The position numbers and the translations under genes are program-made. Below the pieces are notes generated by a model, which ran no database searches, was not told the origin of the DNA, and saw only the letters and a list, made by a program, of their open reading frames with translations. From assembly GCA_009746045.1 (NCBI GenBank), contig RPFO01001483.1, forward strand, positions 84,501-148,500: a DNA stretch of 64,000 bases, read 5' to 3'. The number at the start of each line of letters is the position of its first letter. Position 1 is the stretch's first letter. Positions 24,885 to 57,464 of this stretch are shown here, one piece after another. Origin of the DNA: Mesostigma viride. Its lineage: Eukaryota; Streptophyta; Mesostigmatophyceae; Mesostigmatales; Mesostigmataceae.

Positions 24885-25079
24885 CCAGGTGGAAGGCCGG
24901 CCGAGTCGGCCAAGGCACCGTGAAACTTGAGGCAGTTGCTACCAAGGTAGACGCCCTGGCCACGCAGGTCCCCGAGATCGCCGAGCGAACGGCCACCATC
25001 GCCGCCCAACCTGCTGGTAGGGCTATAGCGATGACCCCTCGACTCGCGCCTCCTGGGCGGACCTGCTCAAGAGCCAGGC
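24885..25079 (+). mobile_element. Left part of an ORF1-only retroelement split by the LTR retrotransposon
   Basis: Reads KLEAVATKVDALATQVPEIA and then, after a frameshift, a SWADLLK motif equivalent to WADMLK of the copy at 6.1 kb, just before the LTR. The remainder resumes at 56,516 after the target duplication CAGGC. Confidence 0.7.
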
Positions 25080-25768
25080 TGTTGCGAACCCGACCCTTTG
25101 GAACGGGCGCAACAATGGAATAAATTATGTATTTTGGCTTGTTGTCATAGTCCGTAGGACTTTGGGATTCATTTCGGGACTTAATTTGGGAATTGTCCCT
25201 TGGTCAGGATTTTTGTATGGAACTATGATAGTTTGTGTGATTCGGACCGGTTATTTTGGGCCTAGGTTGATGTTCGAGATCTTCTAGAGCTAGTAGGCCG
25301 GTGCATTCGCGCCGCGCTGCGTACTTTACAGCTGGTTGAGATATTGTACTCATGCGTGGATTCTGTAGCCAGCTGGCGGGGGTCGATGTCGACCCGAGGA
25401 TCTTGTGTGGACTGCATGCTTTGGAATTCGCTGGAAGGTCGGCGCCATGTCGGCGCCCCTTGCCAGCTTGGTGGCAGACCTAGGTGAAATTGGTCCGAGG
25501 ACGAGAGTCTCGTCCTCTTGGTTCGGAATAAAGTGTGTGTTATCACCTGTCTGAACCTGGGGCATAATTCCAACTGCATTTGGTGGCTCTATCCTGAATG
25601 TGGGTTGTGTAGATTAATGCAATATTAATCACCGTGAGCCGTAGCAGTGTAAATGCCGCAACTGCTCCGTTAATACCACTCCCGGAGAGTGGTGAGCGGT
25701 TGACCCAGATTTCCATATTAACCACCCTAACATAGGATCTTTCGCACGACCCGGATGGGTTCGTTACA
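25080..25768 (+). repeat. 5' long terminal repeat
   Basis: 689 bp, starts TGTTGCG and ends GTTACA, with short inverted ends TGT...ACA. AATAAA at 25527-25532 is a candidate poly(A) signal, preceded by a 10-bp hairpin (GAGGACGAGA-G-TCTCGTCCTC). Identical to the 3' LTR except at 25378. Confidence 0.95.
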
Positions 25769-25790
25769 CTGGTTATCGGAGGTTAGGTTA
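25769..25790 (+). promoter_or_regulatory. Candidate primer-binding site
   Basis: One base after the LTR the sequence is TGGTTATCGGAGGTTAGG. The TGG start is as expected for pairing with a tRNA 3' CCA. It is not the common initiator-Met site (TGGTATCAGAG) and I could not name the tRNA. Confidence 0.5.
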
Positions 25791-26404: not shown

Positions 26405-26776
26405 ATGGGAACCTCTCGCAGCAGACGTAATAATGAAGGAGGATATAGACGTATTAATCAAGGAGGTAGATCCCAATACCTATACTATGCAGTAGCACAC
26501 GACGGGGCCACAGGCCAACCAGGAATTTTCTATAGTTGGGCTGCGTGTAGTAATCATATTAAGGATAAAGTCTTACACCCAGCGTCGTTAGCTAGATGGC
26601 AGGGATTTAATACATTAGCGGAGGCAGATCAGTTTATTAGGATAATATGCCCCTCCCAGAAGGGCTGCACCAGCATAGGCGTGTCACCCAGATCCCAGCA
26701 CAGGATGTGTTGCGTGCACTGGAGCAGCTTCACCTGGGCCCATCCTCTAGGGCATAAGCCCCACTATCACTACTAG
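26405..26776 (+). CDS. ORF0: small protein with an RNase H1 hybrid-binding / viroplasmin-like domain
   Basis: 123 codons from ATG 26405 to TAG, in the leader upstream of gag. After a basic N-terminus (SRSRRNNEGGYRR), residues about 25-71 read YYAVAHDGATGQPGIFYSWA, then a Lys-rich turn, W-Q-G-F-N-T-L-A-E-A and FI. This is the pattern of the RNase HI N-terminal hybrid-binding domain (Pfam Cauli_VI): tyrosine-rich first strand, GIF-x-SW-x-x-C, and F-x-T-x-x-E-A-x-x-F. In RNase H1 the domain binds RNA/DNA hybrids; in plant pararetroviruses it occurs in the inclusion-body protein. No RNase H catalytic part follows. The C-terminal 45 residues are Cys/His-containing and unrecognised. It could bind the hybrid made during reverse transcription or be a captured host domain. 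The domain call rests on residue pattern only. Confidence 0.7.
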   Translation: MGTSRSRRNNEGGYRRINQGGRSQYLYYAVAHDGATGQPGIFYSWAACSNHIKDKVLHPASLARWQGFNTLAEADQFIRIICPSQKGCTSIGVSPRSQHRMCCVHWSSFTWAHPLGHKPHYHY

Positions 26777-26941
26777 ATACCAGTATATAGTGATACTAAC
26801 TACTAGCTTAGCTACAATAGTTAGCAGATAATATATAATTACTATTAGAAGTAGTTGTGGCTTCCTCTTCTCTCTCTTGCTTGCCTGTGTTGGGGAGGTA
26901 TTGTGTAAGGTACTGGTGCTGGTACGGTACTCGGGCCCAAA

Positions 26942-29152
26942 ATGCCTAAGAAGCGAGGTGGTGGTAAAGCACAGCCCCCGGAGGGCCGTAGAGAGACACA
27001 GTCCCCGGAGGACAATAGCAGGGAAGAACAGGAAATAGCTAGCACGGCTAGTCGGAGTTCCAGTGGGTCCCGGAGATCCGAGGCAGCCGCTAGGGTTACC
27101 GCACAACGGCAGACGACTCTTGAGACGCAGCTAGAACAAGCTGCCCTAGGGTTTGGTCAGCAACAGCAGTCGCCGCAGCGACAGCATCAGCCTCAGCAGT
27201 CGCCGCAGCGACAGCATCAGTCTCAGCAGTCGCCGCAGCGACAGCAGCAGTCGCAGCAGCAGCAGCAGCAGTCGGAGCAACAGCGACAGCCCCAGCAGCA
27301 ATCGCGGCCACGACCGACTGAGCATCTGGGCGAATGGAACAGGGTACCTCCCACGCAGCGACCACCATCCGTGGAAGTTGTGCCGGAGGAAGATGAAGAT
27401 ATAGAGGTCGCTTTTAGCCCGGTAGCTAGCTCGCCGTTCGCTCCGCCGCCTGAGTTCGTGCAGCCCTCTCAATTGGGGGCATACGCGCGTGGCCGCCCGA
27501 GCCTGACTCACCCTTGGGCAGGGCGTGGCCGCGGCGGGCCGGGGCCGGGCCCTGGAAGGGATCCCCGTCGGGTCTCCTTTGGAGCGCACGAGAGCTGGTC
27601 CAGACCCCCACCGCAGACGTCAGGGTCGGCCCACGTGCAGTACGATCCCGAGGAGGAGGACTATGCTCCCCCGGGCCCCTTTCCTTACGTATCCACCTCC
27701 CTCCCAGCAAGGAGCGCGCCCACCAACGCTAACTTCAGCCGGCTGCCCCTGGATGACCCCGGTTATGAGCATCCCACGTCCGTTCGCGTTCGGCGTGAGT
27801 CGGCCCCCTTTGCGTCACAACGGATGTCCGCTGACTACGCGCCCCGCCGAGTATCCGGCGACTTCGATCCCGAGCGTGCGGAGGACACCTTCGTGTCCCA
27901 ACGTGGGCATGACCAAACTGCAGGAAGGGGTTCGCACCAGGAGATGCGGACGCGGTGTCACCATCCCCTCACCTTTTCTAGCCCCGCGTACTGCAGCAAG
28001 GGTGGCCCCCTGCGACCTGACCCTGTCAAGGCGCCGCCTATGCCAGATTTTAAGGCGGTGCCCAAGCTCCATGCGGGCATGACTCCCCGTGAGATTGACG
28101 AGTGGGCTCGTATGTGGCAACAGTTGTACACTGTATGGTGTGAACACCATGAGTGGCAGCTGGCCACCAAGGTTCTGATCCCCTACGTGGTGGTGAAGTG
28201 TATGGACCCATCAGTGGTCGGGATGCTTAACGTTGAGAGTGTGGCGGCCCAGTCATACCCGCAGACGGTCGAGGAACTGCACGAGCGCATCCGGCGCAAG
28301 CTCATCCCTCCCGGCTATCGACTGACCGAGCGGTTTGAGTTCGGCCGCCTACGTCAGGGCAACACTGACTTGGCGGAGTTCCTCACCACTTTTGATTCCT
28401 TTGCGGCGCGGTTGACCGGGGACCTGACGTGGACCGAGTACAAGATTCGGTTTTTGGAGGCCATCCATCCCGACCTCCTCGCTGAGGTTAAGAAGCACTA
28501 TGCCGAGGTTCCCTGGGACAAGCTTGACATCCACGCTGTCCAGCAGTACCTTCTACAGGTGGCCGACGTCGTCAAGCAGCCGCGCTACACCAGCACCCGC
28601 CGGTTCGCCTCATCCACGATGACACGCCGTGTCCACTTCACTGAGGTGGAACCCGACCCGTCGGAGGGGGAGGAGTCCAATGACGACGAGCAGCCGGCTG
28701 CCCAACTGCACGCCATCGATGCGTCCAAAGCCCGCTGTTTCATGTGTCACGAGGTCGGGCACCTCAAGAAGGATTGCCCGCGCCTCAAGGCGCGCACCAG
28801 CACGGCGACGGAGGCCACCAAGGAGGCCCCCAAGTTTTCTGGTCCCGCCTTTGAGAGGCGCCCAGCGCCGGCAGCGCGGGATGCTCGCCCGCGCAACGCA
28901 GGCGCGCGGGCTGCCAAGCTGCGCGACGCGCGCACGCAGCCCAACCAGTTCCAGACACCCCGCTTCCCAGCATCGTTCTCTCGGACAGTGCGCGAGCTCA
29001 ATGAGATCCTGGCGCAGCAACAGGCGTCCGAGGCTGGAGGTGACGAGTATGAGGCGCTCAACCCCGGCGACGACGACGACTCGGATGAGGGGGAAGGGGG
29101 GACCGGAAGGTCGGACGAGGCGGCCTCCCGGCCCCGCGATCCTCGCGCGTAG
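26942..29152 (+). CDS. gag polyprotein (ORF1)
   Basis: 736 codons from ATG 26942 to TAG 29150-29152. Order: basic N-terminus (MPKKRGGGK); Gln-rich repeats at about 75-125; a Pro/Arg-rich, disordered part to about 360; a capsid-like helical core at about 365-545 (MTPREIDEWARMWQQLYTVW, then RFEFGRLRQGNTDLAEFLTT), as in retrotransposon gag; one CCHC zinc knuckle at residues 599-612 (CFMCHEVGHLKKDC); and an acidic tail. Gag assembles the cytoplasmic particle and the knuckle packages RNA. The frame is intact. It overlaps the pol frame, which opens at 29,089 in the -1 phase; a run of six G (29096-29101) in the 64-nt overlap is a possible slip site. Confidence 0.9.
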   Translation: MPKKRGGGKAQPPEGRRETQSPEDNSREEQEIASTASRSSSGSRRSEAAARVTAQRQTTLETQLEQAALGFGQQQQSPQRQHQPQQSPQRQHQSQQSPQRQQQSQQQQQQSEQQRQPQQQSRPRPTEHLGEWNRVPPTQRPPSVEVVPEEDEDIEVAFSPVASSPFAPPPEFVQPSQLGAYARGRPSLTHPWAGRGRGGPGPGPGRDPRRVSFGAHESWSRPPPQTSGSAHVQYDPEEEDYAPPGPFPYVSTSLPARSAPTNANFSRLPLDDPGYEHPTSVRVRRESAPFASQRMSADYAPRRVSGDFDPERAEDTFVSQRGHDQTAGRGSHQEMRTRCHHPLTFSSPAYCSKGGPLRPDPVKAPPMPDFKAVPKLHAGMTPREIDEWARMWQQLYTVWCEHHEWQLATKVLIPYVVVKCMDPSVVGMLNVESVAAQSYPQTVEELHERIRRKLIPPGYRLTERFEFGRLRQGNTDLAEFLTTFDSFAARLTGDLTWTEYKIRFLEAIHPDLLAEVKKHYAEVPWDKLDIHAVQQYLLQVADVVKQPRYTSTRRFASSTMTRRVHFTEVEPDPSEGEESNDDEQPAAQLHAIDASKARCFMCHEVGHLKKDCPRLKARTSTATEATKEAPKFSGPAFERRPAPAARDARPRNAGARAAKLRDARTQPNQFQTPRFPASFSRTVRELNEILAQQQASEAGGDEYEALNPGDDDDSDEGEGGTGRSDEAASRPRDPRA

Positions 29153-32100
29153 TGCCCCTTCCCACAGGGGTAGAAGTAGGAGTAGACTTAGTCAACCAGG
29201 TAGAACAGCCGCCTGCACCGGATGTGGGCGCGGCCACCCCTGAGGCCGATGTAGCGTTAGTCAATAATGTAGATAGGACGGGCGGGCAGGCCCCAGCGGT
29301 CTCCTTGCCCTCTTCAGATGCAGGCGTGTCGGCGACCGCGGTCGACCCCGCTTCAGCCAATAGTGTAGATAGGTCTAGCGGACAGGCCCCGGAGGCCTCG
29401 CCGCCCTATGCTTCACCAAGCACCAGAACACTTTTAATCTTCAGTGGTGGACTGGCGCTCCCTACCACCACACTTGACCCGTTTCTGAAGGAGAAGACGA
29501 TCCTGGATGTTAAGTTTATGGTGGATACGGGGGCGACCACATCCTTTATCCATGAGGCCCTTGTGCGACGCGCTGGCTACACGATTCGACCACACCCGAC
29601 GCCCATCAACGTCCGGTATGCCGATGGTAACAAGCACCCGTCACCTGGCCTCGTGGACCTCAAGGCGGTTGTCCAGGGCATACCAGTGGAGGTAACAGCC
29701 ACAGTGGCGCCGCTGGGCGCCGCTGACATCATCCTGGGCGTTGATTGGCAGGACGCCCAGGACGTGACGATCAGTGTCAAGCGACGGGTGGTTTGGTTCC
29801 CTGATGGCTCCTTCTGGTGCCCACGGCACGAGTATCTGGCGCACGGCACCGAGGTGCACAACGTTCAGCACGACGCGGGGCCCGAGAAGCCACGACGCCA
29901 TGCATCTCAGATGCTGATGAGCAGCAAGACGCTCGCGCGCAACCTGCAGAAGGGCAAGGAGTACTACATGTACCGCCTTGACTCTGTGCCCCTGCTTGAG
30001 GAGCTGCTGGAGATCGGCACCGACTTCACTGACGACGAGATCGCGCGCTACAACGCCATCCTGGCCAAGCGGGAGAAGCTGTTCGACGAGTCTACACCGC
30101 AGTTTCCCCCGCCCCGTTCTGTGCTGCACCATATCCGCCTCAAGGAAGGCTTCGGGCCCACCACGTCCCCGATGTACCGGATGGGGCCAGTCGAGCTGAT
30201 GGAGCTCAAGAAGATCCTGATGGCCCTCCTTGAGCGTGGTCTGATTGAGCCCAGTAACAGCCCTTTCTCCGCTGGGGTACTCCTAGTGCCCAAGCCTGGG
30301 GGCAAGTGGCGGCTCGTCACCGACTACAGGAAGCTCAACGCGATCACTGTCAAGTCCAAGTACCCGCTCCCGCGCATTGATGACATCTTCAATCGAGTGC
30401 AGGGCGCCACCTGCTTCACGGTGATCGACTGCGCCGATGGGTTTTGGCAGCTCCGCATCGCTGAAGAGGACTGTCACAAGACGGCCTTCAATACGCCATA
30501 CGGACACTACCAGTTCCGTGTGGCGGCGATGGGGCTTTGCAACTCACCAGCCAGCTTCCAGATGCTCATGAACGACATCTTGCGGCCCGTCATGGGGACT
30601 GCACACCTGCCACAGGTATCCAGTGACCTGCGCGACCCTCGCAAGGGGGACAAGCCGCCCTGGTCCTGGAAACGCACTTGCGCTTTGGCCTATCTGGATG
30701 ACATCCTCGTGTACTCCAAGACCTTCGAGGAGCACCTGGAGGACGTCGATACGGTCCTGCGCATTATGGAGGACGAGCATCTCTCGGCCCGCAGGGCTAA
30801 GGTCCGTGCGGGGCGCAGCGTCCCGTTCCTGGGCCACACGCTTTCAGCGGCAGGCGTGGCCACGGACCCGGAGAAGATCGCCTCTGTCCAACAGTGGCCA
30901 GCTCCGACAGACGTGAAGGGCGTGCGTAGCTTTCTGGGGATTGCGTCATACTATCGACGCTTCATCCCCCGGTTTGCCACGATCGCGTCGCCCATCAACG
31001 CTCTCCTCAAGAAGGGCGTATCCTTCGTCTGGTCGGCACAGTGCCAGCAGGCCTTTGAGGCCCTCAAGGCCAGTTTGACCGCGGCACCCGTGCTCGTGCT
31101 CCCAGACCCGTCCCTTCCTTTTGTGGTTGCGACGGATGCGAGCAAGGTGGCTATCGGCGGGGTCCTCTTGCAGGACCAAGGCAAGGGCTTGCAACCGGTT
31201 GAGTACATCTCCCGCACAATGATCCCCGCCGAGCGGAACTATCCGGTCCACCAGCAAGAGCTGTTGGCTGTGGTCTACTGTTGCCACACATGGCGCCACC
31301 ACCTGTTGGGCGCGCAGTTTGATGTTGCAGTCAGCGAGACAGGGGACCTCGACCCCGCCCGTTTGATTATTCACACCGACCATAGGCCCCTGACCCACCT
31401 CTTGACGCAGCCAAATCTGACGCCCCGTCAGGCCAGGTGGATGGAGTACCTTTCCCAGTTTGCCCCTTTTAAGATCCAGTATGTGAAGGGTGCGGACAAC
31501 GTGGTGCCCGACGCCCTCTCCCGTCGTGCTGACTACTGGTTCTATGAGGACATGGGGGTGCTCCATACCACCTGTGAGGAGGCGCCTGGCGCCCCGCTCT
31601 ACGATGACCTCCCACGGTCGCCGCGGGCGCGCCACCTGTTTCACATGAGTCATACCACTCCGGATGCCTTGTCGCCCCCCGATGGCGACGACGACCAGCG
31701 CGTGGACGCGCGGTCCCCCGGGGAAGGGGAGGGGTCCCACACACGGGTTCCCCTTGGCGCTGTGGCTCAGGCTATTTTTCATCTGGAACCTCTTGGATCC
31801 CCGGTGGTCGTGTCTGAGTACCTACACTCGGCGCTGGACCAACCGGAGGAGGAGGACGAGGCCGATGCGTATACGGTCACTTCCCCCCTGGAGATGCTGA
31901 TCAGCCGCTTCACGGTTACCGAGCCGGCCGCCTTGGAGGTGATCAAGTCACACCCCAAGATGATGGGTAGGCTCCCGTGCAAGTTCCAAGAGGGTCGCCT
32001 ATACGTCATGGTGCGCCCGGACACGTGGCGCCTCTACATACCCGAGCTCTGTCGAGCAGCCTTGCTCCACGAGCTCCACGACTCCCTAGTCGGCGGTCAC

Positions 32101-35100
32101 CAGGGCATTGGGCGACTGCTACCAAGGGCACGTCGTCACTTCTACTGGCCTGGCATGAAGGACTACATTGCGGCCTATATACGCGAATGCCCGTCGTGCC
32201 AGATAGCCAAGTCCCAGAACACGGGTACTCAGGCTGTCCCAAAGACGCTACCTGATCCCCTGGGTCCCTGGGACTCGATCCAGATGGATTTCGTCGGCCC
32301 CTTTAAGAAGACCAAGAACGGCAACAGCAAGATCTTGGTGTTCGTGGACCGACTCACGCGCATGTGTCACCTGGCCCCCTGTCCGGCTGACCTCACGGCC
32401 GAGGGGTGTGCCAAACTGTACCTCAACCACGTCTTCCGGTTCCACGGGCTCAGCCGCCAGTTCATCTCGGACCGGGACACGCTCTTCACCGCCCGGTTCT
32501 GGCAGGAGTTCTTCGACTGCCTGGGAACCAAGGTGTCGCTAGGGACGGCTTATCACAGCTCGTCCTCCCATCTGGTGGAGCGACTCAACCGCACGGTACA
32601 GGAAACCATGCGCCATTACACCGACGAGGTGGGCAGCAACTGGGAGGAGTTGCTGTGCTTGGTGGAGTTCTCCTTGAACAACGCACCACAGGCAGCCCAT
32701 GGCCTAACCCCGTTCTTTCTCAACACGGGAAGGCATCCGCTGACGCCGACCGACTTGCTGACGAGTCCGGCGCTGGCGGAACCGGAGGTGCTGCGCACTA
32801 CTCTGGCGGGCGTGAGCAGCCTGCTGGAAAAGATGCGCCAAGCTCACAACAGTGCGGTTAAAGGGTACCGGGCCGCTGCCGAGCGCAACATGGCTCGCGT
32901 GGAAGGCAAGCGGGACTCTAGAGCACCGGACATCGAGGTCGGGGACTGGGTCCTGGTAGAGGGACCCCAGCTCGGTCGATTCTCCCAGAAGGTGGAAGGG
33001 GAGCTCAAAACGAAGCTCCGGCCCATGTACCTGGGGCCCCACCAAGTGCTGGAGAAATGGGATGATGTCATGTTCAAGGTGGACGTGCCCATCTCATGGC
33101 CCTAAGCTCGTCTGGATTTGTACTAGAACACGCAATTTGTAGTTCATTTTGAAAAGTTGTATTTTATTGAATTTAAAGTTTCCACTTAAGTCTCTGAGGA
33201 AGGGGAAGTTCATAGGACCCGTGACACCGTGACATCGTGACACCGTGACACCGTGACACCTCAAAATGCATATAAACACACATCTTTGCAGGTATGCAGT
33301 GATTATTAATGGGGATGATGTATTCAATGGGTCATTGCAAGTTTTACCTATGCTTCTGACACCGTGACACCGTGACACCGTGACACCGTGACACCGTGAC
33401 ACCGTGACACCGCAAATACCACGTATACACCTTCATAATAATCCTAGTAGAGACATTCATTTCTCCATACATCTCGGTCATCTCACCATATATCGTCTCA
33501 TGTTGATGTATTCTTGTTGTGCGTGTAGGTACCTTGCCGGGTCATGACAAGTTCAGCCATTCCTCGTTTATGCGGTCCAACGTCGCTTCAATAGGGCATG
33601 TGATTAATATCTGGTAACAACTTATATATGTTGGCACGCCATGCGTCCAGGAATAGCTGTCTCACTTAATATGCATGCAAGCAACCATCAAAATCACTTT
33701 GTCATGAAATCACTTGCCGGGATTTCAGTTTCTCCCTGGCCGGCCTGAAAAAGCTGGTTCTTTATAAACTCTTTCCGATCCGCAGGCTTCTTAGACCACA
33801 TGTCGGTCCTCATCGTCCTGAGCTCCTCGAAATGCACGCTTCTCAAACAATGGCGGCCACAACCACAGTCCCAGTCCCTGCAAAGTGCCGCAGCCAAGGA
33901 CGAATCCTGGGTGCATTTCGCCAACACGGCGGCTGCAGATAACCGGACCCCGCGCCTCGCCATCATATTGAACACGACGACGCCCAGGAGTAATAGCAAG
34001 AAGAACATTCCCAAAACCTGCCAACCCAGCGCCCCCGCACTGGGCTCCATGAAAACGCCGGGTCTCGCCATGGCTATGTCAACTGGGCAATGTTGCAAAC
34101 ATCATTTGTCCCCCCCCCTCCCCATCTATTTCTACGTTGGCAGATGGCAAACGTAGATCCCCACGCCATGTGTGGGGGGGAATAAAACATGGCAGACCGG
34201 GATGTCACGCCAGCCCGGTCTGCCCGAGTTGTTTAGCCCATGTTACCTCATTTGGCAGCGATCACCATCGCTGCCGCTCTCGTGAATTCGGGGTGAAAGC
34301 GCACGGTGTCACGGTGTCTCAACATGTTTGTAGTTGGTTTGTAGTTGGTGTCTCGGTGTCTCAGAAACTCGTGGTCCGCATTGAGTGGGTGTCACGGTGT
34401 CACGACATCTGATTGGCCCGGTTCAGATTCGTTTTTTTTTTAATTTTTTTTTAATTCGTTTTTTTTTTTTTTTTAATTTGGGGCGAATCTGAACCGGGCC
34501 AATCAGATGTCGTGACACCGTGACACCCACTCAATGCGGACCACGAGTTTCTGAGACACCGAGACACCAACTACAAACCAACTACAAACATGTTGAGACA
34601 TGGGTGTCACAACCGATGTCACAAGGTGTGCAGCAGGTATTTCCTTTCAATCCCCGAGGAAATTATCAACCATTCATCGGCCATTCTGGTCAGGATAGCT
34701 AAGAATGGCTAGCGAATAAAAAGGCAGTATCGAGGCTGGAAATTTTAGTGTATGCTCCTAGGGTCATATATTACTTGCCGTTATTTTTTTTCGCCACAAA
34801 TTCTGCGGAGTCCTTCCATTTTGGCGTCATTCACAGGTGGGTGCCTGTTTTGTCGCCGATTTTCTCTCGACCCCACCTACCTGCAGCAAAAAATTTTCCC
34901 GATGAAAGTCGCCCTAACATCTGGTTTTTGACACTAACCGACGCAGTTTTTAGTTTTTAAGGCCTTGACCGAAGCACTTTTTTCATTACCGGCTCAGTTT
35001 GCTTTAACCGAGCTGGCGCGATTTTTAATCCAATTTCTAGGCTGGGCCAGGCGTCGCAGACCCGTAATCCGTTTTTAAGTGCTTTTGTGCCCGATATCGT

Positions 35101-36521
35101 GTCTTTTGCAGGCGTTCTTGGCATCAAAGACGCCGTGGCGTCAGGGGCTAAAACGGACCTCCGCACGTTCGTTAACTGCGGCGAGCATGTCAATGCCGCC
35201 AGCAATTTTTGCTGCCGCGTCTGTGAAACGATTGCGATGCAAGACCGTTGTCGACGTGACGGAGTGGTATGTGCACATTCAGGTGCGAATTTCTTCGCTG
35301 TTGAAACCCCGGCCGGTAGCAGACAAGTATTTCACCGTATCCCCTTTCCCCGAGTCTCTCTTTTCCGTCATGTTTTCATCTTACGGAAAGCGCGTATAAA
35401 GCATCAGTGAGCGACAGTATGATGGCGAGCCGTTTGCTCGCATCAGGGCTGTGCGGCTTATTCTAGAGAGAAGCGACATCAAGCAGATTTTGCAGCCGGA
35501 TGTGAGGGAGGGGCCCTGCTGGGGTGGGAATAAACTGCTGTGAGTGACCGATCCACTCCCTTCCTCCCTCCCTCCCTCCCTCCCTCCCTCCTCCCTCCCT
35601 CCCTCCCTCCCTCCCTCCCTCCCTCCTCCCTCCCCTCCCTCCCTCCCTCCCTCCCTCCCTCCCTCCTCCCTCCCTCCCTCCCTCCCTCCCTCCCTCCCTC
35701 CCTCCCTCCCTCCCTCCCCCTCCTCCCTCCCTCCCTCCCTCCCTCCCTCCCTCCCTCCCTCCCTCCTCCTCCCTCCCTCCCTCCTTCTTCCCTCCCTCCC
35801 TCCCTCCCTCCCTCCCTCCCTCCCTCCTCCCTCCCTCCCTCCCTCCCTCCCTCCCTCCCTCCCCCTCCCTCCCTCCCTCCCTCCCTCCCTCCCTCCTCCC
35901 TCCCTCCCTCCTCCCTCCCTCCCTCCCTCCCTCCCCCTCCCTCCCTCCTCCCTCCCTCCCTCCCTCCCTCCCTCCCTCCCTCCCTCCCTCCCTCCCTCCC
36001 TCCCTCCCTCCCTCCCTCCCTTCCTCCCTCGTGAACTCACTCGTGGACTCACTCACTCGTGGACTCACTCCCTCACCCACCCACCCACCCACCCACCCAC
36101 CCACCCACCCACCCACCCACCCACCCACCCACCCACCCACCCACCCACCACCCACCCACCCACCCACCCACCCACCCACCCACCCACCCACCCACCCACC
36201 CACCACCCACCAACCACCCACCCAACCACCCACCCACCACCCACCCACCCACCCACCCACCCACCCACCCACCCACCCACCCACCCTCCCTCCCACCCAC
36301 CCACCCACCCACCCACCCACCCACCACCCACCCACCCACCCACCCACCCACCCACCCACCACCCACCCACCCACCCACCCACCCACCCACCACCCACCCA
36401 CCCACCCACCCACCCACCCACCCACCCACCCACCACCCACCCACCCACCCACCCACCCACCCACCCACCCACCCACCCACCCACCCACCCACCACCCACC
36501 CACCACCCACCCACCCACTCA

Positions 36522-36565
<44 letters not shown>

Positions 36566-39500
36566 CTCACGCACGCACGCACTCACTCACTCACTCACTC
36601 ACTCACTCACTCACTCACTCACTCACTCACTCACTCACTCACTCACTCACTCACTCACTCACTCACTTAGTAACTTGCACATGCACCACATGCGCAAGGA
36701 GGACACCAAGAGCTTCACCAACCACCGTCGAAAGCTTGGCTGTGATGCCAAGGGCAAGGGTGTGGGGGTGTCCATGTTGACACAGTGCATGAAGGCTGAC
36801 AAGGTCAGGCAGAGATTGTGCAGGGAGGTGCCACTACCTCCTAGCTAGCGATACCGAGATGAGGGCGCGCAAACGCATCAGCGCCATGCCGCGTGTTGAG
36901 TAATTTGCAACTACATTACTTGGCATGCTGTGGGTGCACGTGTAAAATGACCTTTCTAGCCATGCATGCGACAGCTGCCAATATTATGTTCAGCAAGCTC
37001 CTCCCTATAATAGAAATTGCGTGAGCATCCACATGGCCACATGTGCATATTGTCAGCTGTGTCTATATCAATGAACTTTTATGTATGTCTCCTGGACGGG
37101 TTGTCTTACATCACTCGTGAATGGTTTCCATGTTTTAGTGAGTCATCTTATTTGAGTTGACCAGATTGTCTCCTTGATATTCCACACTGGCAGTTTCGCA
37201 TCCATGGGTAAGAATTTGTAATGGAAACTGGCAGGTATGGCATTGATAGCTCTACCAAATAGAACATGATCGGCCTGAATTTTTGTGGAATGTCTAAAAT
37301 CATGATGGCTAAGATGCATGCAAGTTTCCAGCCTCAACAGAGCACATCTTGTACGGAAACTGCACTGAAATGTGATGAAAAATACGAAAAACGTGCATTT
37401 TTGGTAACATTTGTGAGCAAACTGACATCAAATACCCTCTGATGGTTCTGAATTTTTGTGGAATGTCTAAAATAATGATGGCAAAGATGCATGCAAGTTT
37501 CCAGCCTGAACTGAGCACATCTTGTATGGAAACTGCCATGGAATGTGATGAAAAATACGAAAAACGTGCATTTTTGGTAACATTTGTGAGCAAACTGACA
37601 TCAAATACCCTATGATGGACCTGAATTTTTGTGGGATGTCTAGAATAATGATGTTTAAGATGCCTACAAGTTTCCAGCCTCAACCGAGCACAGCTTGTAT
37701 GGAAACTGCAATGAAATGTGATGAAAAATACAAAAAACGCACATTTTTGCTAGCATTTGGTGGCATTTTGTTACCAAATGCGGTTGGATGACCATCAGAT
37801 CTTGTGTACAGTCATTAGTCATGAGTATCAACTTACTTGCAAACAGCCAGGTCAAGAACTCTTTATTTGCATATTAGAATGTATTTGTTTATATTAAAAT
37901 CTGGAAAACTGCTAAAAATAGAAATGCCAAAAATAGGTCAGCTGAGGTCCGGTAAGTCCGGAAAGTTGCAATCCTTCTACTGGTGTCCTGAACATGCTAC
38001 CTACCAAGATCTAGCATGTTTCGACAATATTTGCATCGTACAGGAGTTATAAGGCTGTTTTTTGGCACTTTCAGACCGTTGTGTGCGGAGCATGACGATG
38101 GAACGGGCGTAGCACGGCCAACGGGGGAGGAGACTGAGAGCGCAGTTGATGCGGGGACACCCGTAGGTGATGAAGGGCGGGGGAATAAGAAATCGCACGT
38201 GTACGTCAAGGTTAAGGCCCTGACCGAGAGGGTCAATGCTTTGGAGAACCAACGAAGAATGCCATCCACCCCAGCAAGTGCTGCACCCAGCTCCAGCACT
38301 GGCGTTGGCACGGAGCTTCGCCGGCCCGCTGCGCCTGCCGCGTTGGGGCAACGCGAAAGCTTCAGCGCGGCCCATGGCCAAGTGACAGGACTGCAACCAG
38401 CACACCGTCAACAAGAGCCACGCGCGCGCGCAGTCGCAATGGATGGGCCGAGGCAGCTGGATCGGGAGGGGGAACCGTACGGCGAGCACGGTGTGTACGC
38501 GCCGTACGACCAAGGAATGCATGCCCAGCCTACTGCCGCTGGCAGGCAAGCGGCCAATGCTTATGTATACCATGCCGGCATGTACGATCCACAGCCTGGC
38601 GAAGGGTCGGCAGCTGATACACATCAGCCTTGAGGTCGCGGCACATTGCAACAAACCACCTACGTTGAGAACCCTGAGCCCGTGCAGCATTACAATGACG
38701 GCACTTACCGTTATGCCGCAGCCCCCCCTCTAAGGAGATCTCCAAGGAAGACAAAGCCGAGGCCCCAAATCCCCAAGGCCGCCGGGGAGCAAGACTGGCA
38801 ACATGGTGATGAGTGATGAGGGAGGAGGTTATGCAGCCAGGGATTCTCATTTCATGGGTCATAGTCATTTTGATGAGCAAGGGACGTGGGCCTACAACGC
38901 CCACGTCCGGCCGGCCCCACAACCAGGCACATGCCCAGGCTCCACCGCGGAAAAGGCCACCCTACTCGCAAGATGTAGACGAGTCGGGGCAACACGATTA
39001 TTATGGTTCATATTAGATTGGGCATGTATGGTTTTGATACGGCATTTGCTTGGCACCAGATTCTGCATTAAAGAAAGCTGTATGCAAATCATTGTCAGGT
39101 AAGTTTAAGCTAATTTATACATTATTTTATCTTGCATTTGATATTAAAGAGGCAGAGAGACACAGTTGGCAGATGCAAGTTTGCTAGGCCATGTAATAGG
39201 GATTATTGGTCATCCATCATATTCATAAATTTTCTTTTATTTATACATGGTTGCATAATACATTAATGTTGCGTTAATACTTTGTGGCACTAAACAACAA
39301 AATCATGAAATGCTAGTGCTATCGTGTCATATTGTCACTATCATGCTGTCACGGTGTCACAATGTCACGATGTCACGGTGTCACAATGTCACCTCATGTT
39401 AATCAGTGCTTCTGGGCAATGTAATATCATTGTTGCAACCCCATGGGCGCCACATTACCTTGTGACACCATACAAAATCGTAAAATACTAGCGTTATGGT

Positions 39501-40501
39501 GCCATCGTGTCACGGTGTCACGGTGTCACGGTGTCACGGTGTCACGGTGTCACGGTGTCACGGTGTCACGGTGTCACGGTGTCACAATGTCACCTCATGT
39601 TAATCAGTGCTTCTGGGCAATGTAATATCATTGTTGCAACCCCATGGGCGCCACATTACCTTGTGACACCATACAAAATCGTAAAATACTAGCGTTATGG
39701 TGCCATCGTGTCACGGTGTACATTCACGGTGTCACGGTGTCACGGTGTCACGGTGTCACGGTGTCACGGTGTCACAATGTCACCTCATGTTAATCAGTGC
39801 TTCTGGGCAATGTAATATCATTGTTGCAACCCCATGGGCGCCACATTACCTTGTGACACCATACAAAATCGTAAAATACTAGCGTTATGGTGCCATCGTG
39901 TCACGGTGTCACGGTGTCACGGTGTCACAATGTCACCTCATGTTAATCAGTGCTTCTGGGCAATGTAATATCATTGTTGCAACCCCATGGGCGCCACATT
40001 ACCTTGTGACACCATACAAAATCGTAAAATACTAGCGTTATGGTGTCACGGTGTCACGGTGTCACGGTGTCACGGTGTCACGGTGTCACAACATGTTGGG
40101 ACAATAACCTACATGCTTTGGACTTACGAGAGGCCCTAAATAACAAAGTTTGAAAAATCTCAATTTGTAGTAGTGTTCTAGTACAAATCCAGACGAGCTT
40201 AGGGTGGGGCACCGCGACAACCTTCCACCGCGACCAGCTCAAGCTGTACCACCAGAACTCGATCCAGGGTAGACTCAATCCCCCGGCTCCGGTGGAATAC
40301 GACCCGGAGACAGGGGAACAGGAGGACGAGGTCGAGGAGATTGTCGCCCATCGCGATTTCGGGCGTGGTCGTCAACGCCAATATCGGATCCGGTGGAAGT
40401 TTACTAGATATGGGGCAGAGGCCTCTTGGCGGACGGAGAAGGAGCTCTCTGGCTGCAAGCGGTTGCTAGACGCGTACAAGAAGGCCCACAGGTTGCACTA
40501 G
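29152..40501 (+). CDS. pol polyprotein (ORF2): protease, RT, RNase H, integrase, chromodomain; interrupted by a CACTA-type element
   Basis: Coding parts 29152-33099 and 40208-40501 (stop TAG), about 1,413 codons together. Protease active site DTGA at residue 125; reverse transcriptase with YLDD at about 514; RNase H (VATDAS at about 660); integrase HHCC zinc finger at about 977-1022 and D,D(35)E core starting MDFVGPF (about 1046), SDRD (about 1106) and VER (Glu about 1143). The usual AYHPQ...TER motif is here AYHSSSSHLVER. The last 95 residues, beyond the insertion, form a chromodomain (EVEEIVAHRDFG, QYRIRWKF, ASWR), which in chromoviruses steers integration. In its present state the gene stops at TAA 33103-33105, supplied by the inserted transposon; the split falls in codon-phase register with a TGG duplication. 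No early ATG opens the frame, so expression by -1 frameshift from gag is likely. Confidence 0.92.
33218..33416. repeat. Left subterminal GACACCGT repeats of transposon 1
   Basis: Two clusters of GACACCGT (33,219-33,260 and 33,356-33,412), about ten units in all, the inverse complement of the array at the right end. Confidence 0.9.
33694..34098 (-). CDS. Cys-rich ORF of transposon 1, possible transposase N-terminal fragment
   Basis: 134 codons. The C-terminal half has DWDCGCGRHCLRSVHF, then ELRTMRTDMW and RKEFIKNQL. A C-x-C-x3-C cluster followed by an R-x6-W/S-x7-R-x2-F pattern is, as I recall, common near the N-terminus of large DNA-transposon proteins in algae and oomycetes. The N-terminal half contains a hydrophobic run (VLGMFFLLLLLGVVVF) that may be translated noncoding sequence. 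The only recognisable candidate for part of a transposase here; no DDE domain was found next to it. Confidence 0.4.
   Translation of the reverse strand: MQHCPVDIAMARPGVFMEPSAGALGWQVLGMFFLLLLLGVVVFNMMARRGVRLSAAAVLAKCTQDSSLAAALCRDWDCGCGRHCLRSVHFEELRTMRTDMWSKKPADRKEFIKNQLFQAGQGETEIPASDFMTK
34315..34602. mobile_element. Foldback MITE nested in transposon 1
   Basis: Two inverted arms of about 115 bp (34315-34432 and 34486-34602), outer ends TGTCTCAACATG and CATGTTGAGACA, around a T-rich centre. The arms contain GTGTCACGGTGTCACG, the same motif as the subterminal arrays of its host element, so the host's transposase may also mobilise it. Confidence 0.85.
35079..35535 (+). other. Coding-like segments in transposon 1
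   Basis: 35,079-35,395 includes TVVDVTEWYVHIQVRISSLL and a Pro-rich end before a possible donor. 35,405-35,535 reads YDGEPFARIRAVRLILERSD, then IKQILQPDV and WGGNKLL. Both look like protein but lack a start and a known domain. They precede the large microsatellite; a further piece (CMKADKVRQRLCREVPLPPS) follows it at about 36,785-36,848. Confidence 0.3.
35556..36667. repeat. Compound tetranucleotide microsatellite of 1.1 kb: CCCT, CCCA, CACG, CACT
   Basis: Four blocks in order: (CCCT)n 35,556-36,028, (CCCA)n 36,068-36,516, (CACG)n 36,517-36,582 and (CACT)n to 36,667. Each block differs from the next by one base per unit. All long Pro/Leu/Ser/Thr/His and Gly/Trp/Arg/Glu open frames here come from it. 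Confidence 0.97.
37190..37800. repeat. 172-bp tandem repeat, about 3.5 copies
   Basis: The marker CCAGCCTCAACAGAGCACAT and variants occurs at 37,329, 37,501 and 37,673. Each unit includes GTGATGAAAAATACGAAAAA and CTGAATTTTTGTGGAATGTC. No coding signal. Confidence 0.9.
38016..39005 (+). pseudogene. Broken Gln/Tyr-rich coiled-coil ORF in transposon 1
   Basis: The frame from 38,016 reads a coiled-coil-like stretch (VYVKVKALTERVNALENQRR), a Pro/Ala/Ser stretch and a Gln/Tyr/Gly-rich part, then TGA at 38,631-38,633. The same frame continues with protein-like sequence (TYVENPEPVQHYNDGTYRYA) to TGA at about 38,816, after which the coding look shifts frame (PRKRPPYSQDVDESGQHDYY, ending about 39,015). 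It may be the remains of a DNA-binding accessory protein of the transposon. No known domain recognised. Confidence 0.45.
39325..40090. repeat. Right subterminal repeats of transposon 1
   Basis: Four modules of 150-200 bp, each with AATGTCACCTCATGTTAATC (39,387; 39,587; 39,775; 39,928) and a variable run of CGGTGTCA. Run length differs between modules (2 to about 10 units), as expected for unequal exchange or slippage. Confidence 0.92.
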
Positions 40502-40772
40502 AGGTATGTACATACACATAGAGGTATGTACATACCACAGGTACACCGTACACTAGTCGGTATGACACCGGTACTCACAGGTGTTGCCTTGCTGCTCGTG
40601 GTCATTCCTTGTACAACAGGCGTACTCCCCGGAGGAGACTCGCTTCAGCCCCCGCCCCATAGGTAGTGACTCCAGCAGTCCTTTGGTGCGGTTCACACCC
40701 CCAGCCTCCCCGGAGGAGCCTCCGGGGTTCGCACCGCCTGCCAGTTGTGGCAAGAGACGACGGTCGGAAGAC

Positions 40773-43700
40773 ATGAAGGAGCAGGGGTCGGATATAGCTG
40801 CGACCGCCAACGAGAACAACCGTGAGACCTTTAATCCGCGGACGTTTCTGCCCGACTACGGCCAGGAGGGCGTGTTCTTGGCGCGTCGACGGCGCAGGCA
40901 CGGCAAGGCCGATCAAGACTACCTGGCCTCCTCGGTTCTGGAGTGGCCCGACGATCGACACGAGAAGTTCCGCGAATCCGTGCAAAGGCACTGCGGGTTC
41001 AAAGTCGAGACCCGGACGGCGATTCGAGGGAATGTGGCGGTAGGGACAGCTTGGGAGGACCACGCACCCAGCTGTGCCTGCAACCGTTGCGTGACTACGG
41101 TGTCGGCCCTCATGGCCTACCCCCGCCTCATGTTCTTGCTCGTCGCACCGGCACGACGTCAGATCCTGCAGCGGGCCTACCGGGGCTTGCCGCCAGATGG
41201 GGCCTTGCGGGGCCCGTTCTGCACCGCAGCAGGCCAGTACTCCCTCCGGCAGGCGCTCGACCGCATCGTGGAGTTGGACGAGGCGGATGATCGCGGCGGG
41301 GAGGGCCCCGATGAGGAGGAGGACTGGAGTGAGGACGACGACCTGTTCCCGCCGCGCCCTGCGCCCCGGGAACTTGCCCACTCAGCCGGCAACGCCTCGC
41401 GCGATGCCGGGGCCCGCCGCGAGAACTCGGGAGACCGGCGACCCCCGGGTCAGGACAGGAGGTCCGGCAGCGCACGGGACGCGTCCCGCTCCAGGGAGCC
41501 TTCCCGTGGCGTGGGTGTTCGCCCGGAGACGCGTGAGGAGGAAAGGTCCTTTCGGCGGACATGGGACAGGGCGACGGGACATCAAGGGTCGCGGTCGCCA
41601 AGGTCGGCCCCGGAGGCCGCACCTTCGGCTGATCGGAGCAAGACACACTAGGAGTTAATTTTACGGGGCGTAAACGCCCCGGTTGAGGTTACCGGGGCGG
41701 TTACTGGCCAGTAACCATGTACGTTTAAGGTTACCGGCCAGGTTACCGGCCGGTAACCCGGAATGCAACAGACTAAATACCGGCCGGTAATGGTTACCGG
41801 GCGGTATTAGTTACCGGAACGTTTACTGGGCGGTAACTTTTACCGGAGCCGTAACCATGCCCGTAACCTATCTGGGTTACGGTCATGGTTACGGCCCAAG
41901 TAGAAGTTACCGGGCGGTAAACTGGTATGGTTACGGGACCAGTTCTGAGAACCGGGATGGGTTACCGGCATGGTTACGGGACCAGTTCTGATAACCGGGC
42001 CTGGCTACTGGCCTGGTTACGGGTCCGTCAACCGTCCCGTAACCTGCAGTAGTTACGGCCCAGTAGTTGACCCTGGTTACTGCGGTGGTTACGGGGCCGG
42101 TTATGCCCCAGTAATATTAGTAACCCATGCCTACAACGCAGCCTGTCCGGGTTATGGCCCCGAATTCTAAATGCATTGACCCCGGCTATGGTGAGTGGCT
42201 TGCATGATATGGTGCTTTTCAAGATGCATTTTTGAATTAGGCATTTCATTAAAATGTTTAAGAAGTCATTAATAATCAATTGCACGAATCACTTCCATCC
42301 GATGTTGTCAACGTGGGCTTCATGATGAAATCGTGGAGATGACGCACATGAAGTTCACGGAACATCTTAGGTAATAAATTAAGCCGTTACGGCAGTAGAA
42401 CCTTGGCCGATGAGGGTGGCGTCTTGAAGCTGTTGTCACCCTCAAGTCCGCTCGGCCAGGGGTAATCGCCCATGTTGATTTGAAAGGTACCGCCGTCCAT
42501 ATGGCGGCTCCGCTTTTGGTGCGAGTTGACCAACTTCCCGTCTTAATCATTCCGGATTGCCTGCAGTTCATTCCGCCTTTGTCCAAGTAAGACAGCAACT
42601 GTCACGCACTCATAGAAAACGCAAAATGCCCCGAATGCAGTTACGGCCATACGGTAGCGAGGAATAGCAGTTGAAATTTCTAGTACACAGGCAACTAGTA
42701 AGAAAAGGGACGATGCGTGCACCACCACCAATACGTACGTGCATCCCTCTCTTGAAAATGACAGCATCTTCCATGCCGTCCAAGAAAAACGCAACGTATT
42801 TAACATGAACCCGAATGCAGTTACGGTCGTAGACTAGTGAGGACTGGCAGCTGAAAGTTCTAGTTGATGGGCTGAGAATAAGGAAAAAAATGATGCGTGC
42901 ACCCACCTAACCTATTACGTCCCTCCCATGGCAAGGAACCAGCAAAACCACCCACATACCCTGTTGTGTCCCTCCCTTGACAAGGAACAAGCACGTGCAC
43001 ATGCCCCACCCCACATGCATGCCTCCCTTGACAAGAATCGAACGGGCACGTGCACCCACCTACCCTATGTGCAGCCCTCCTTTGACAAGGAACAAGCACG
43101 TGCACATGCCTACCCCACATGCATGCCTCCCTTGACAAGAATCGAACGAGCACGTGCACCCACCCACCCTGTGTGCACCCCTCCTTTGACAAGGACCAAG
43201 CACATGAACTCACCTACACTACGCGCGTCCCTCCCTTGACAAGGAATAGGCACGTGCACATGCCTACCCCACATCCATGCCTCCCCTGACCAGTAACAAG
43301 CACGTGCACCCACCTACCCTACGTGCATCCCTCCTGTGACATGGAACAAGCACGTGCACCCACCAACCCTATGTACGTGCCTCTTGACAAGCAACAAGCA
43401 CGTGCACCCACCTACCCTAAGTGCCCCCCTCCTTCGACAAGGAACACGCATGTGCACTCACCTACCGTACGTGAATCCCTCCCTTGGCAAGGACCAAGCA
43501 CGTGCACCCACCTACCCGATGTCCGCCCCTCCCTTGATAAGGTACAAGCATGCCCACCCACCTACCCTACCTGCATCCCTCCCTTGACATGGAACAACCA
43601 TGTGCACATTCCTACTCCACATGCCCCCCTCCTTTGACAAGGAACAAGCATGTGCACTCATCTACCGTACGTGCATCCCTCCCTTGACAAGGAACAAGCA

Positions 43701-46700
43701 AGCCCACCCACCTACCCTACCTGCATCCCTCCCTTGACATGAAACAAGCACGTGCACATGCCTACCCCACATGCATGCCTCCCTTGACAAGGAACGAGCA
43801 CGTGCACCCACCCACCCTGTGTGCACCCCTCCTTTGACAAGGAACAAGCACATGAACTCACCTACACTACGTGCGTCCCTCCCTTGACAAGGAATAAGCA
43901 CGTGCACATGCCTACCCCACATCCATGCCTCCCCTGACCAGTAACAAGCACGTGCACTCACCTACCCTACGTATGTGCCTCTTGACAAGGACCAAGCTCG
44001 TGCACCCACCTACCATACGTGAATCCCTCCCTTGACAAGGTACACGCATGCCCACCCACCTACCCTACGTGGGCCCCTCCCTTGATAAGGTACAAGCATG
44101 ACCAGCCACCTACCCCGCGAGCCTCCCTACTTTGACAAGGAACAAGCACGTGGGCCCGCTAGCATGGCAGCAAGGAAGACATTACCCTAACATGGCATGG
44201 CCAAAGCAAAAGAGACAGAGAAGTCAATGGAGAGAGAGCTCCTAAGAACTCCTAGTAAAATTGGAAACCATGGAGGGCAAAAAACGTTCAACAACTTACG
44301 ATGGGCATCGGCACATACAGAGAAGCCCAGGTGTGCCAGGTGTAAAATAAGCGAGATTGAAGTGTCGCCTACCTCGTGGGAGACTTTTGGTATCTGGTAA
44401 ACAATGAAAGCGAGTGGAAAGATGGACAACGTGAAAATAACATACAAACCACTGCAATGCATGCAAAGAGGACAGAATCAGTAATAAAGCGCGCTGCATT
44501 CAGGCAGCGCTGAGCAATTGAACGGTGAACAATTTAATCCGGAACGCATTGTCTACGCGACTCGATGCGACTAAACGTGGCATGCATACGCGGTCGCTGA
44601 CTGAAGACATTGTGTACCTGGCTCAGCAAGGTGCGCTTGCAGCCGCTTTCTTAAATATGCCGCAGGCGCACGATGTAACGAATTGAAGTTTGCATGTAGT
44701 AACAAAGGCAAGAAAAGCGGTGTAGCTGGCTACCGACTACGCCATAGTAAGCTGTATCGGAGTTGGCGTTGCCGATGGCTGGAAACGGATGACCGAATCA
44801 TGCTAAACTGGGGCTCCAAAAGGGCTTGTCATGCATCCTAGTGCGCCTTTTGCTTTTTTTTCTTCAAGCATCGTGAGCATGCGGGTTTAGGGGGGCGCTT
44901 ATTCTTTCACCACTATCAGTCGGCTGGACTGCAATCGGCATAGCCAGCGCAAGGTGATGCAAGGGCAGGCAAACTAAAACTTTACCAGCTCGTTCAAGGC
45001 TCGTTGATGAAATTCAAACATCTAGGCGGCGCGTCTGCAACGGCTCATCGCAATTCGAATTCGCAAGCAGAACCCTCGTTACACGTGGCGCATGCAGAGA
45101 TCTGCTTCGGGCGGCTTGGCGTATCTCACTGCGTCGTGACTCGAGTACATGTAGATAGTCAGCCTAGTTAGTACTCTGGGGGCCTCGAGTTCGGCAGTCC
45201 CCTATTCGGAAATCCCGGATCATATGTACTCCACACTATGTACTCTTGGAGTACATAGTGTGCCACCCTATGTACTCTTGGAGTACATAGTGTGGATTAC
45301 ATAGGTAGTCACTCCTTCCTATGTAATACGGGCGTGTCTCACCGCGTCGGCAGTCCCCTATTCGGAAATCCCGGATCATATGTACTCCACACTATGTACT
45401 CTTGGAGTACATAGTGTGCCACCCTATGTACTCTTGGAGTACATAGTGTGGAGTACATAGTCACTCCTTCCTATGTAATACGGGCGTGTCTCACCGCGTC
45501 GGCAGTCCCCTATTCGGAAATCCCGGATCATATGTACTCCACACTATGTACTCTTGGAGTACATAGTGTGCCACCCTATGTACTCTTGGAGTACATAGGG
45601 TGGAGTACATAGTCACTCCTTCCTATGTAATACCGGTGTAATCATGCGTAATCATGCGTAATCATGCGTAATCATGCGTAATCATGCGTAATCATGCGTA
45701 ATCATCAGAGTAATCATCAGAGTAATCATCAGAGTAATCATCGTCCAGACAAGCTGCACTGCCCCTAAGACCCTAACTTACACAAGATGGCGATGGTCGT
45801 CGCCGGCAGCTCGACAAGTTCAGGGCAGCACGAAATAAGACAGGCAAGCCGACGCTGGCGCTCATCCCAATGAGGCCATTCATCCGAAGCAGCCTCCATA
45901 ACCTGGCCGCTCTTAGGGTGGCGAATCGGGGCGTCGTTGTCGTTGCGGAGCTTCAGCACGCTTGTCACAGCGGCGTCATTGTAGGCGAGGAAGGTATCGA
46001 TGTCTGCCAGGCTCAAACGCTGGCCTGGCATGTAGAATGAGGAAGAAATGGCGTCCGGCAAGGAGGTTTCAGCAGCTATCGGAGTTGCTTCCGAAGTTGC
46101 TTCCGAAGTCTTGGATCGCTTGTTAGCGGCGTTCTTGGCGACGACAATGTCGTGGGCGATTTTGTTTGCAGCAATCTGGGCATCAATAGAATCGGCGGCA
46201 AGAGCTGAAGACGATGCGGGGACCTCCATAGCTACGTTTAATAGCACCTAGACGAGGGCAGGGGGCGCAGGCACACTGATCACGTGCGTGGTGCCGCCAT
46301 AATGTGCAGAAAAATAGCGAGATCTGCTGGGCAGGCCGCTGGCGATAACTTAAGAAACCCTGGGCGATGGCTGCCAAAAATTAGATCGGCGTGTTCGTCA
46401 TCAAAAGGCGAGTCTATTGCAATTTACCCGACCAAATTTCATCATGGATGGAGGGAGGGAGGGAGGGAGGGAGGGAGGGAGGGAGGGAGGGAGGGAGGGA
46501 GGAGGGAGGGAGGGAGGGAGGGAGGGAGGGAGGGAGGGAGGGAGGGAGGGAGGGAGGGAGGGAGGGAGGGAGGGAGGGAGGGAGGGAGGGAGGGAGGAGG
46601 GAGGGAGGGAGGGAGGGAGGGAGGGAGGGAGGGAGGGAGGGAGGGAGGGAGGGAGGGAGGGAGGGAGGGAGGGAGGGAGGGAGGGAGGGGGGAGGGAGGG

Positions 46701-55811: not shown

Positions 55812-55826
55812 GGGGAGGGGGAGGAG
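55812..55826 (+). promoter_or_regulatory. Polypurine tract
   Basis: GGGGAGGGGGAGGAG lies directly against the 3' LTR, the expected primer site for plus-strand synthesis. Confidence 0.9.
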
Positions 55827-56515
55827 TGTTGCGAACCCGACCCTTTGGAACGGGCGCAACAATGGAATAAATTATGTATTTTGGCTTGTTGTCATAGTCC
55901 GTAGGACTTTGGGATTCATTTCGGGACTTAATTTGGGAATTGTCCCTTGGTCAGGATTTTTGTATGGAACTATGATAGTTTGTGTGATTCGGACCGGTTA
56001 TTTTGGGCCTAGGTTGATGTTCGAGATCTTCTAGAGCTAGTAGGCCGGTGCATTCGCGCCGCGCTGCGTACTTTACAGCTGGTTGAGATATTGTACTCAT
56101 GCGTGGATTCTGTAGCCAGCTGGCTGGGGTCGATGTCGACCCGAGGATCTTGTGTGGACTGCATGCTTTGGAATTCGCTGGAAGGTCGGCGCCATGTCGG
56201 CGCCCCTTGCCAGCTTGGTGGCAGACCTAGGTGAAATTGGTCCGAGGACGAGAGTCTCGTCCTCTTGGTTCGGAATAAAGTGTGTGTTATCACCTGTCTG
56301 AACCTGGGGCATAATTCCAACTGCATTTGGTGGCTCTATCCTGAATGTGGGTTGTGTAGATTAATGCAATATTAATCACCGTGAGCCGTAGCAGTGTAAA
56401 TGCCGCAACTGCTCCGTTAATACCACTCCCGGAGAGTGGTGAGCGGTTGACCCAGATTTCCATATTAACCACCCTAACATAGGATCTTTCGCACGACCCG
56501 GATGGGTTCGTTACA
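55827..56515 (+). repeat. 3' long terminal repeat
   Basis: 689 bp, identical to 25,080-25,768 by eye except for T at 56125. Followed by the target duplication CAGGC (56516-56520). Confidence 0.95.
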
Positions 56516-57464
56516 CAGGCATCCTCTACCACGACTGCCATCACCACCAAGCTCCAGGAGCTGGAAGACACGCGCCGCGAGGCCGCTGACCGCGACCGTC
56601 GCCGCTGCCGGGGGCATCCTCAGGCGCTTCGACATGCCGCCGGAGGAGACGGCCAGACTCTCTTCTCAACGAGCTGAAGAAACAGCTCTTGGCGTGCATG
56701 GAGCTGCCATGCAGGTACGGCACTGCAGGGCGCCAATATACCGCCTGCCCCATATATCCACGGGCCAAGGCTGGGCCCCCTCCAGTGGTCCTCACCTGCA
56801 GCGACATCACAGCCCGAGTTCGGTTCCTCTCTCGCCGCAAGAAGCTGGTGGACACCTCCTGGTCGCTTGACGACGACCTGACGCCAGCCCAGCAGCAGCA
56901 ACGCCGCGATCAGTGGCCCGACTACATCCGCCACAAGACCAACCCCGAGAAGCCCCAAGTGTACTGGCGGGGCGGGGACCTCTATGTCAACAAGAAACTG
57001 TGGAAACCCCCCCGGGATTCCCCGGGATAGAGCACTCCAGCTAGTTGTCTAGATGGGGGCAATCGATGATGCATGGATAGCTTAGGCATTACAGCACTTG
57101 AAACGATATTAGCGCACAGCGTTATAGTACCTTCAATTAGCTCTGGCACCTAAGTTGTGGTCATCAGCTTGCGCCTTAATTATAGCCGACGTCTTGAGCC
57201 CACCTCACATTTGTAGCATAAGCTATGCGTCAGCCTGCCTACCTATGGTATTGCACTGGTTGTATTGCACCCACAGTGGTGCGCCCCGGCATGATGCACC
57301 ATGCCGTACGGAGAGAGCGCTCTGTGGCCTGCCCACTTGCGGCAGTGAGAGAAGCTAGGGCGCCCTCCCTCCTTCTCTCTGTGTATATAGCTAGGGTTGA
57401 AGGTTCCTTTACTCTGTATTGGCACCCACGTGACGCAGTCACGTGCTTATTAATTATTAATTAA
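56516..57464 (+). mobile_element. Right part of the split ORF1-only retroelement
   Basis: Continues from 25,079: TTTAITTKLQELEDTRREAA, then in another frame SLDDDLTPAQQQQRRDQWPD and VYWRGGDLYV (about 56,860-56,990). The 3' UTR ends in a different hairpin (CACGTGAC-GCA-GTCACGTG at 57,427-57,445) and a TTAATTATTAATTAATT tail. Frameshifts make it a pseudogene. Confidence 0.75.

Follow-up and report, generated by a model that had tools for sequence, protein, structure and literature searches.

A stand-alone RNase H1-type hybrid-binding domain encoded ahead of gag in a chromodomain-containing Ty3/gypsy element of Mesostigma viride

The hybrid-binding domain (HBD) of RNase H1 (Pfam family PF01693, Cauli_VI; PDB: 3BSU, 1QHK) is also present in the P6/TAV protein of caulimoviruses. 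The caulimovirus transactivator/viroplasmin is a large protein of an integrase-less virus. The TAV motif of cauliflower mosaic virus is reported to bind both RNA/DNA hybrids and double-stranded RNA (dsRNA), and TOR and ribosomal proteins are further binding partners of its domain (PMC5902531; papers identified by PMC number are cited here from excerpts of their text). Carriage of PF01693 by a transposable element is already in print, in the form of the capE protein of the Pleurotus Helitron HELPO1.3 (PMC4289320), and long terminal repeat (LTR) retrotransposons are known to gain domains, among them a second RNase H, a chromodomain and AlkB (PMC9289625, PMC5348765). Here we describe an LTR retrotransposon of the Ty3/gypsy type in a 64,000-nucleotide stretch of Mesostigma viride DNA (contig RPFO01001483.1, positions 84,501 to 148,500; this whole stretch is the window, and its own numbering is used below). 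This delimited and young-looking element encodes, in a small open reading frame (ORF) in the leader ahead of gag, a PF01693 domain without a recognisable catalytic part. The combination of domains is real; it comes from a single copy and its function is putative.

The leader ORF resembles the RNase H1 domain in sequence, in its modelled fold and in its aromatic contacts, but no catalytic RNase H domain was detected in it, it carries insertions of 3 and 5 residues, and it has Gln and Gly at the positions of human K59 and K60. As with P6/TAV, the domain belongs to a reverse-transcribing element and has an ORF apart from gag and pol; in contrast to P6/TAV, the leader ORF is 123 aa long rather than a large protein, and it sits before gag in an LTR element that encodes an integrase. 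HELPO1.3, likewise a transposable element with a PF01693 protein, is a rolling-circle DNA transposon and is not reverse-transcribing. The orchid AlkB elements (PMC9289625) and the oomycete element Chronos, with its dual RNase H and chromodomain (PMC5348765), are Ty3/gypsy elements with an extra nucleic-acid-related domain, as here; according to the excerpts these gained a catalytic domain, whereas the present element has a binding domain alone, placed in a leader ORF.

The leader ORF lies on the forward strand and runs from an ATG at 26405 to a stop codon ending at 26776, encoding 123 aa, exactly as an earlier note made from the DNA letters had placed it. An in-frame TAG is found upstream, with a single codon (TTC) between it and the ATG. 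The residue pattern by which the domain had been recognised is present (YYAV at residues 27–30, GIFYSW..C at 40–48 and F.TL.EA..F at 68–77), and the profile search which the same note proposed gave a significant match to PF01693, the Ribonuclease H1 N-terminal domain (34.2 bits, E 3e-8; curated cut-off 21 bits). The match defines a domain core of residues 27–77 (26483..26635, +) and covers profile positions 2–44 of 44. No other Pfam family matches the leader ORF at E values up to 1, consistent with the claim that it has no RNase H catalytic part. Scored with a profile of bacterial RNase H1 domains, the leader ORF reaches 28.1 bits (E 2.3e-7), whereas no other frame among 1330 stop-to-stop frames of at least 30 aa from the window exceeds the 7.9 bits of the runner-up, and the best of 1000 shuffles of the leader ORF reaches 7.7 bits. 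This profile was made from 117 of at least 120 bacterial RNase H1 loci that a DNA pattern picked out of GTDB genomes. Because the pattern prescribed the motif's first half, invariance there is by construction; agreement downstream of the Cys (A63, F68 and A74) was not built in by the pattern. The Pfam match, together with 28.1 bits against at most 7.9 in the controls, rules out a chance similarity to the domain. The length of the ORF is weak evidence by itself (an ATG ORF of this length or more turns up in 24 of 2000 dinucleotide-shuffled versions of the leader). The NCBIfam model RNaseH_Halikb scores well under its cut-off (E 0.016, 15.2 bits), the best PHROGs match has E 0.044, and a phmmer search of PDB chains with the single leader-ORF sequence gave no match at E up to 10. 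The protein has a basic N-terminal tail and basic flanks around the domain.

The element that contains this ORF is bounded by two 689 bp LTRs that differ by one mismatch, at 25080..25768 (+; TGTTGCGAACCC...GGGTTCGTTACA) and 55827..56515 (+), and by the target-site duplication CAGGC at 25075..25079 and 56516..56520, with a polypurine tract (GGGGAGGGGGAGGAG; 55812..55826, +) directly before the 3' LTR. LTRs, duplication and purine tract enclose the leader ORF, which excludes a position outside the element; within the 64-kb window the only LTR copy besides the 5' LTR is its 3' partner. A putative primer-binding site, TGGTTATCGGAGG (25770..25782, +), begins one base past the 5' LTR and is assigned by position and its TGG start only, with no tRNA matched; tRNA and Rfam scans of the window were empty, so the window offers no tRNA gene for comparison. 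The gag ORF (26942..29152, +) encodes 736 aa with a CCHC knuckle, CFMCHEVGHLKKDC, and its Pfam matches fall under the Pfam cut-offs (Retrotrans_gag, E 0.0028; zf-CCHC, E 0.027). The pol frame, −1 relative to gag (29089..33105, +), encodes aspartic protease, reverse transcriptase (RT), RNase H, integrase and an SH3-like end; the listed pol ORF begins at 29152, and the final six bases of the interval fall inside a nested transposon (transposon A). A canonical −1 slippery heptamer was looked for at the gag-pol overlap and not found. Both the protease-RT-RNase H-integrase order and the best PDB relative of pol, Ty3 Gag-Pol (365 bits), identify the element as Ty3/gypsy. Past transposon A, which separates it from the rest of pol, the coding sequence continues with a chromodomain after the integrase (40211..40498, +; PF00385, E 2e-9, 37.6 bits, cut-off 25.1). 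This places the leader ORF ahead of gag, as the earlier note had said, and downstream of the 5' LTR in a Ty3-like, chromodomain-bearing element. For the term chromovirus, also used in the earlier note, the support comes from domain order and not from phylogeny, and chromodomains may arise by convergent gain (PMC5348765).

Residues of the domain were compared in an alignment of the leader ORF with 37 relatives and the human HBD. In the human domain, Y29 and K60 touch the DNA backbone, and the main-chain amides of R52 and A55 touch 2'-OH groups (PMC7657459). Y28, W45 and W65 of the leader ORF align with human Y29, W43 and F58, so that all three aromatic positions are kept. We take W43, F58 and K59 of the human domain to be additional contacts. 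A structural model of the leader ORF built with an alignment of such domains has the hybrid-binding fold, with 3BSU turning up only on a second structural comparison (VIA-align). The reading that we favour, as possible and still short of probable, is that a captured RNase H1-type hybrid-binding domain serves as a leader gene and aids reverse transcription by gripping duplexes. A chromodomain Ty3/gypsy element would have taken up the N-terminal domain from a protein of the RNase H1 type and would carry it as a small, separate leader gene, and the element RNA would be translated into the 123-aa protein. This protein may then grip the element's own duplexes, either the RNA/DNA hybrid in minus-strand synthesis or dsRNA structure within the genomic RNA; acting in trans, it could assist the RT and RNase H that pol encodes, much as the tethered domain helps cellular RNase H1. 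The young-looking element, the ORF's own start codon, the complete domain and the basic flanks point to an integral gene. The wider proposal, that there is a chromodomain Ty3/gypsy lineage with a conserved stand-alone hybrid- or duplex-binding leader protein which acts as a reverse-transcription cofactor in trans and evolved apart from cellular RNase H1 and caulimovirus viroplasmin, is one that we regard as doubtful.

A number of observations weigh against a role in reverse transcription. The first concern the residues: W65 is aromatic but W occurs at this position in none of the 37 relatives (Y 26, F 11); the position of human K59, with K in 36 relatives and R in one, is Gln66; and the position of human K60 is Gly67, in a variable column (S 23, K 10, G 3, A 1). 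Membership of PF01693 itself carries no requirement for a lysine at the K59 position. The RNA-contact loop, which precedes the third strand, exceeds that of every one of the 37 relatives by 5 residues, this being the longer of the two insertions (3 and 5 residues) that set the domain apart from all of them, and residues 27–77 include 3 K/R against 4 D/E. Since an alignment of such domains went into the model, the fold match is partly circular. Modelled without an alignment, the leader ORF folded poorly (pLDDT, predicted local distance difference test, 41), and Foldseek gave no significant match for the aligned model in PDB or BFVD. Nor need the fold bind hybrids, since ANKLE2 has the same domain with an altered loop and, in the excerpt, shows no hybrid binding in vitro (PMC13179284). 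The description of the leader ORF as the first ORF of the element holds in that it precedes gag, but its own ATG is preceded, downstream of the LTR, by five others that open ORFs of 1–32 codons. A single copy cannot show selection on the leader ORF. Finally, the G+C content at third codon positions (GC3) of residues 1–77 is 0.32, lower than in any window of 77 codons from gag, pol, the two pieces of a post-pol ORF and a neighbouring cytochrome P450 ORF (minima of 0.53, 0.56, 0.68 and 0.61, and 0.71, respectively), and such a low value would be expected of a recent capture, possibly a passenger.

That the domain is a passenger, a piece of an RNase H1-type gene, from the host or a foreign source, caught in the leader of the element or of a recent ancestor and playing no role in transposition, is the strongest of the rival explanations, though we think it rather unlikely. 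By segment, GC3 is 0.23 for residues 1–26, 0.37 for residues 27–77 and 0.74 for residues 78–123 (0.48 for the whole leader ORF), so that codon composition is unlike that of the element in the first two segments and not in the third, and this suggests a foreign, perhaps recent, origin of residues 1–77. The loss of the conserved lysine (Gln66) fits a passenger, as does the Helitron precedent, in which the PF01693 protein capE is described as captured and, in the excerpt, as without copies outside helitrons (PMC4289320). Only one copy is known: no relative turned up when viral contigs were scanned with the leader ORF and with pieces of pol (900 aa) and gag (253 aa), a pattern scan with the leader ORF's own motif spacing gave no match, and tblastn with a 399-aa pol piece had no match in phages. 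A passenger would not so readily account for an ORF whose own ATG closely follows an in-frame stop and whose domain is complete and well kept. Nor does the leader ORF appear to lie within a nested insertion: the region 26200–26941 contains no repeat of at least 9 bp save one 9-bp direct repeat, and the two flanks compared share no 8-mer, which leaves room for a shorter target duplication.

Less probable again, and in our view improbable, is a translation factor in the manner of TAV/viroplasmin, which would permit initiation or reinitiation at the leader ORF, gag and pol on a polycistronic RNA by acting on the ribosome or the leader's duplex RNA. The layout is polycistronic, with 11 ATGs from the LTR to the gag ATG, the leader ORF's own included. 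The dsR domain of TAV, which contains the motif, binds TOR, eL18 and eL13 and falls within mini-TAV, which keeps residual transactivation activity (PMC5902531). Among the best 50 of 294 viral fold matches, caulimovirus ORF VI/viroplasmin proteins occupy ranks 2, 3, 5, 17 and 18, none of them significant. However, the four non-fragment ORF VI/viroplasmin proteins among the matches listed are 435–531 aa long against 123 aa here, and the leader ORF holds just one Pfam domain. A donor-like site, GAG/GTAAGAAG, is seen at 25988 in the leader, and splicing there could bypass most of the upstream ATGs; the leader splice sites are suggestive only, but splicing could equally skip the ATGs with no translation factor. 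An ANKLE2-like change of the fold into a protein-protein module that has lost nucleic-acid binding is very improbable, the precedent of ANKLE2 itself (PMC13179284), the longer loop and the loss of a nearly invariant lysine being set against three positions that remain aromatic and a modelled strand (residues 40–42), placed after the first strand and before the first helix, which ANKLE2 is said, in that excerpt, to be without. We therefore rank hybrid or duplex binding for reverse transcription above a passenger, a passenger above TAV-like translation, and a protein-binding module last.

No paper describing PF01693 in an LTR retrotransposon was found among the full-text matches listed, subscription papers and repeat-element libraries being outside their scope, so that 'unreported' is provisional. 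A nuclease-less hybrid-binding domain would be a different kind of gain for such elements, namely a distinct factor that deals with the RNA/DNA intermediate. Such a domain would make a second reverse-transcribing lineage using the domain, beside caulimoviruses, and would let one ask if the role of the domain is in reverse transcription or in translation.

The 31.4-kb span is not a single giant element, as two nested transposons with terminal inverted repeats (TIRs) make up 19.9 kb of it; without both, the element is about 11.5 kb (duplications counted as 3 and 2 bp). Transposon A (33100..40204, 7105 bp), a DNA transposon with perfect 32-bp TIRs and TGG on both sides, interrupts pol. It contains a 205-aa ORF (38016–38633) that matches no Pfam family at E up to 0.1, and an inverted repeat (34315–34600) whose 117-bp arms match perfectly and are 52 bases apart. 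Transposon B (41646..54440, 12795 bp), a DNA transposon with perfect 16-bp TIRs (CACTAGGAGTTAATTT), has CACTA-like ends. No ORF of at least 200 aa lies wholly within it, and several of its 27 listed ORFs of at least 90 aa are simple repeats. It interrupts an extra ORF after pol, in the position where env-like genes sit in other elements. The two pieces of this ORF (40581..41651, +, with its last 6 bases in transposon B; 54449..55546, +) belong to no Pfam family, with no match at E up to 0.1, and have a 14-letter stretch of protein in common across the split. Adjoining the element is the cytochrome P450 reading frame, unbroken over 460 aa (22282–23664; Pfam E 2.9e-63).
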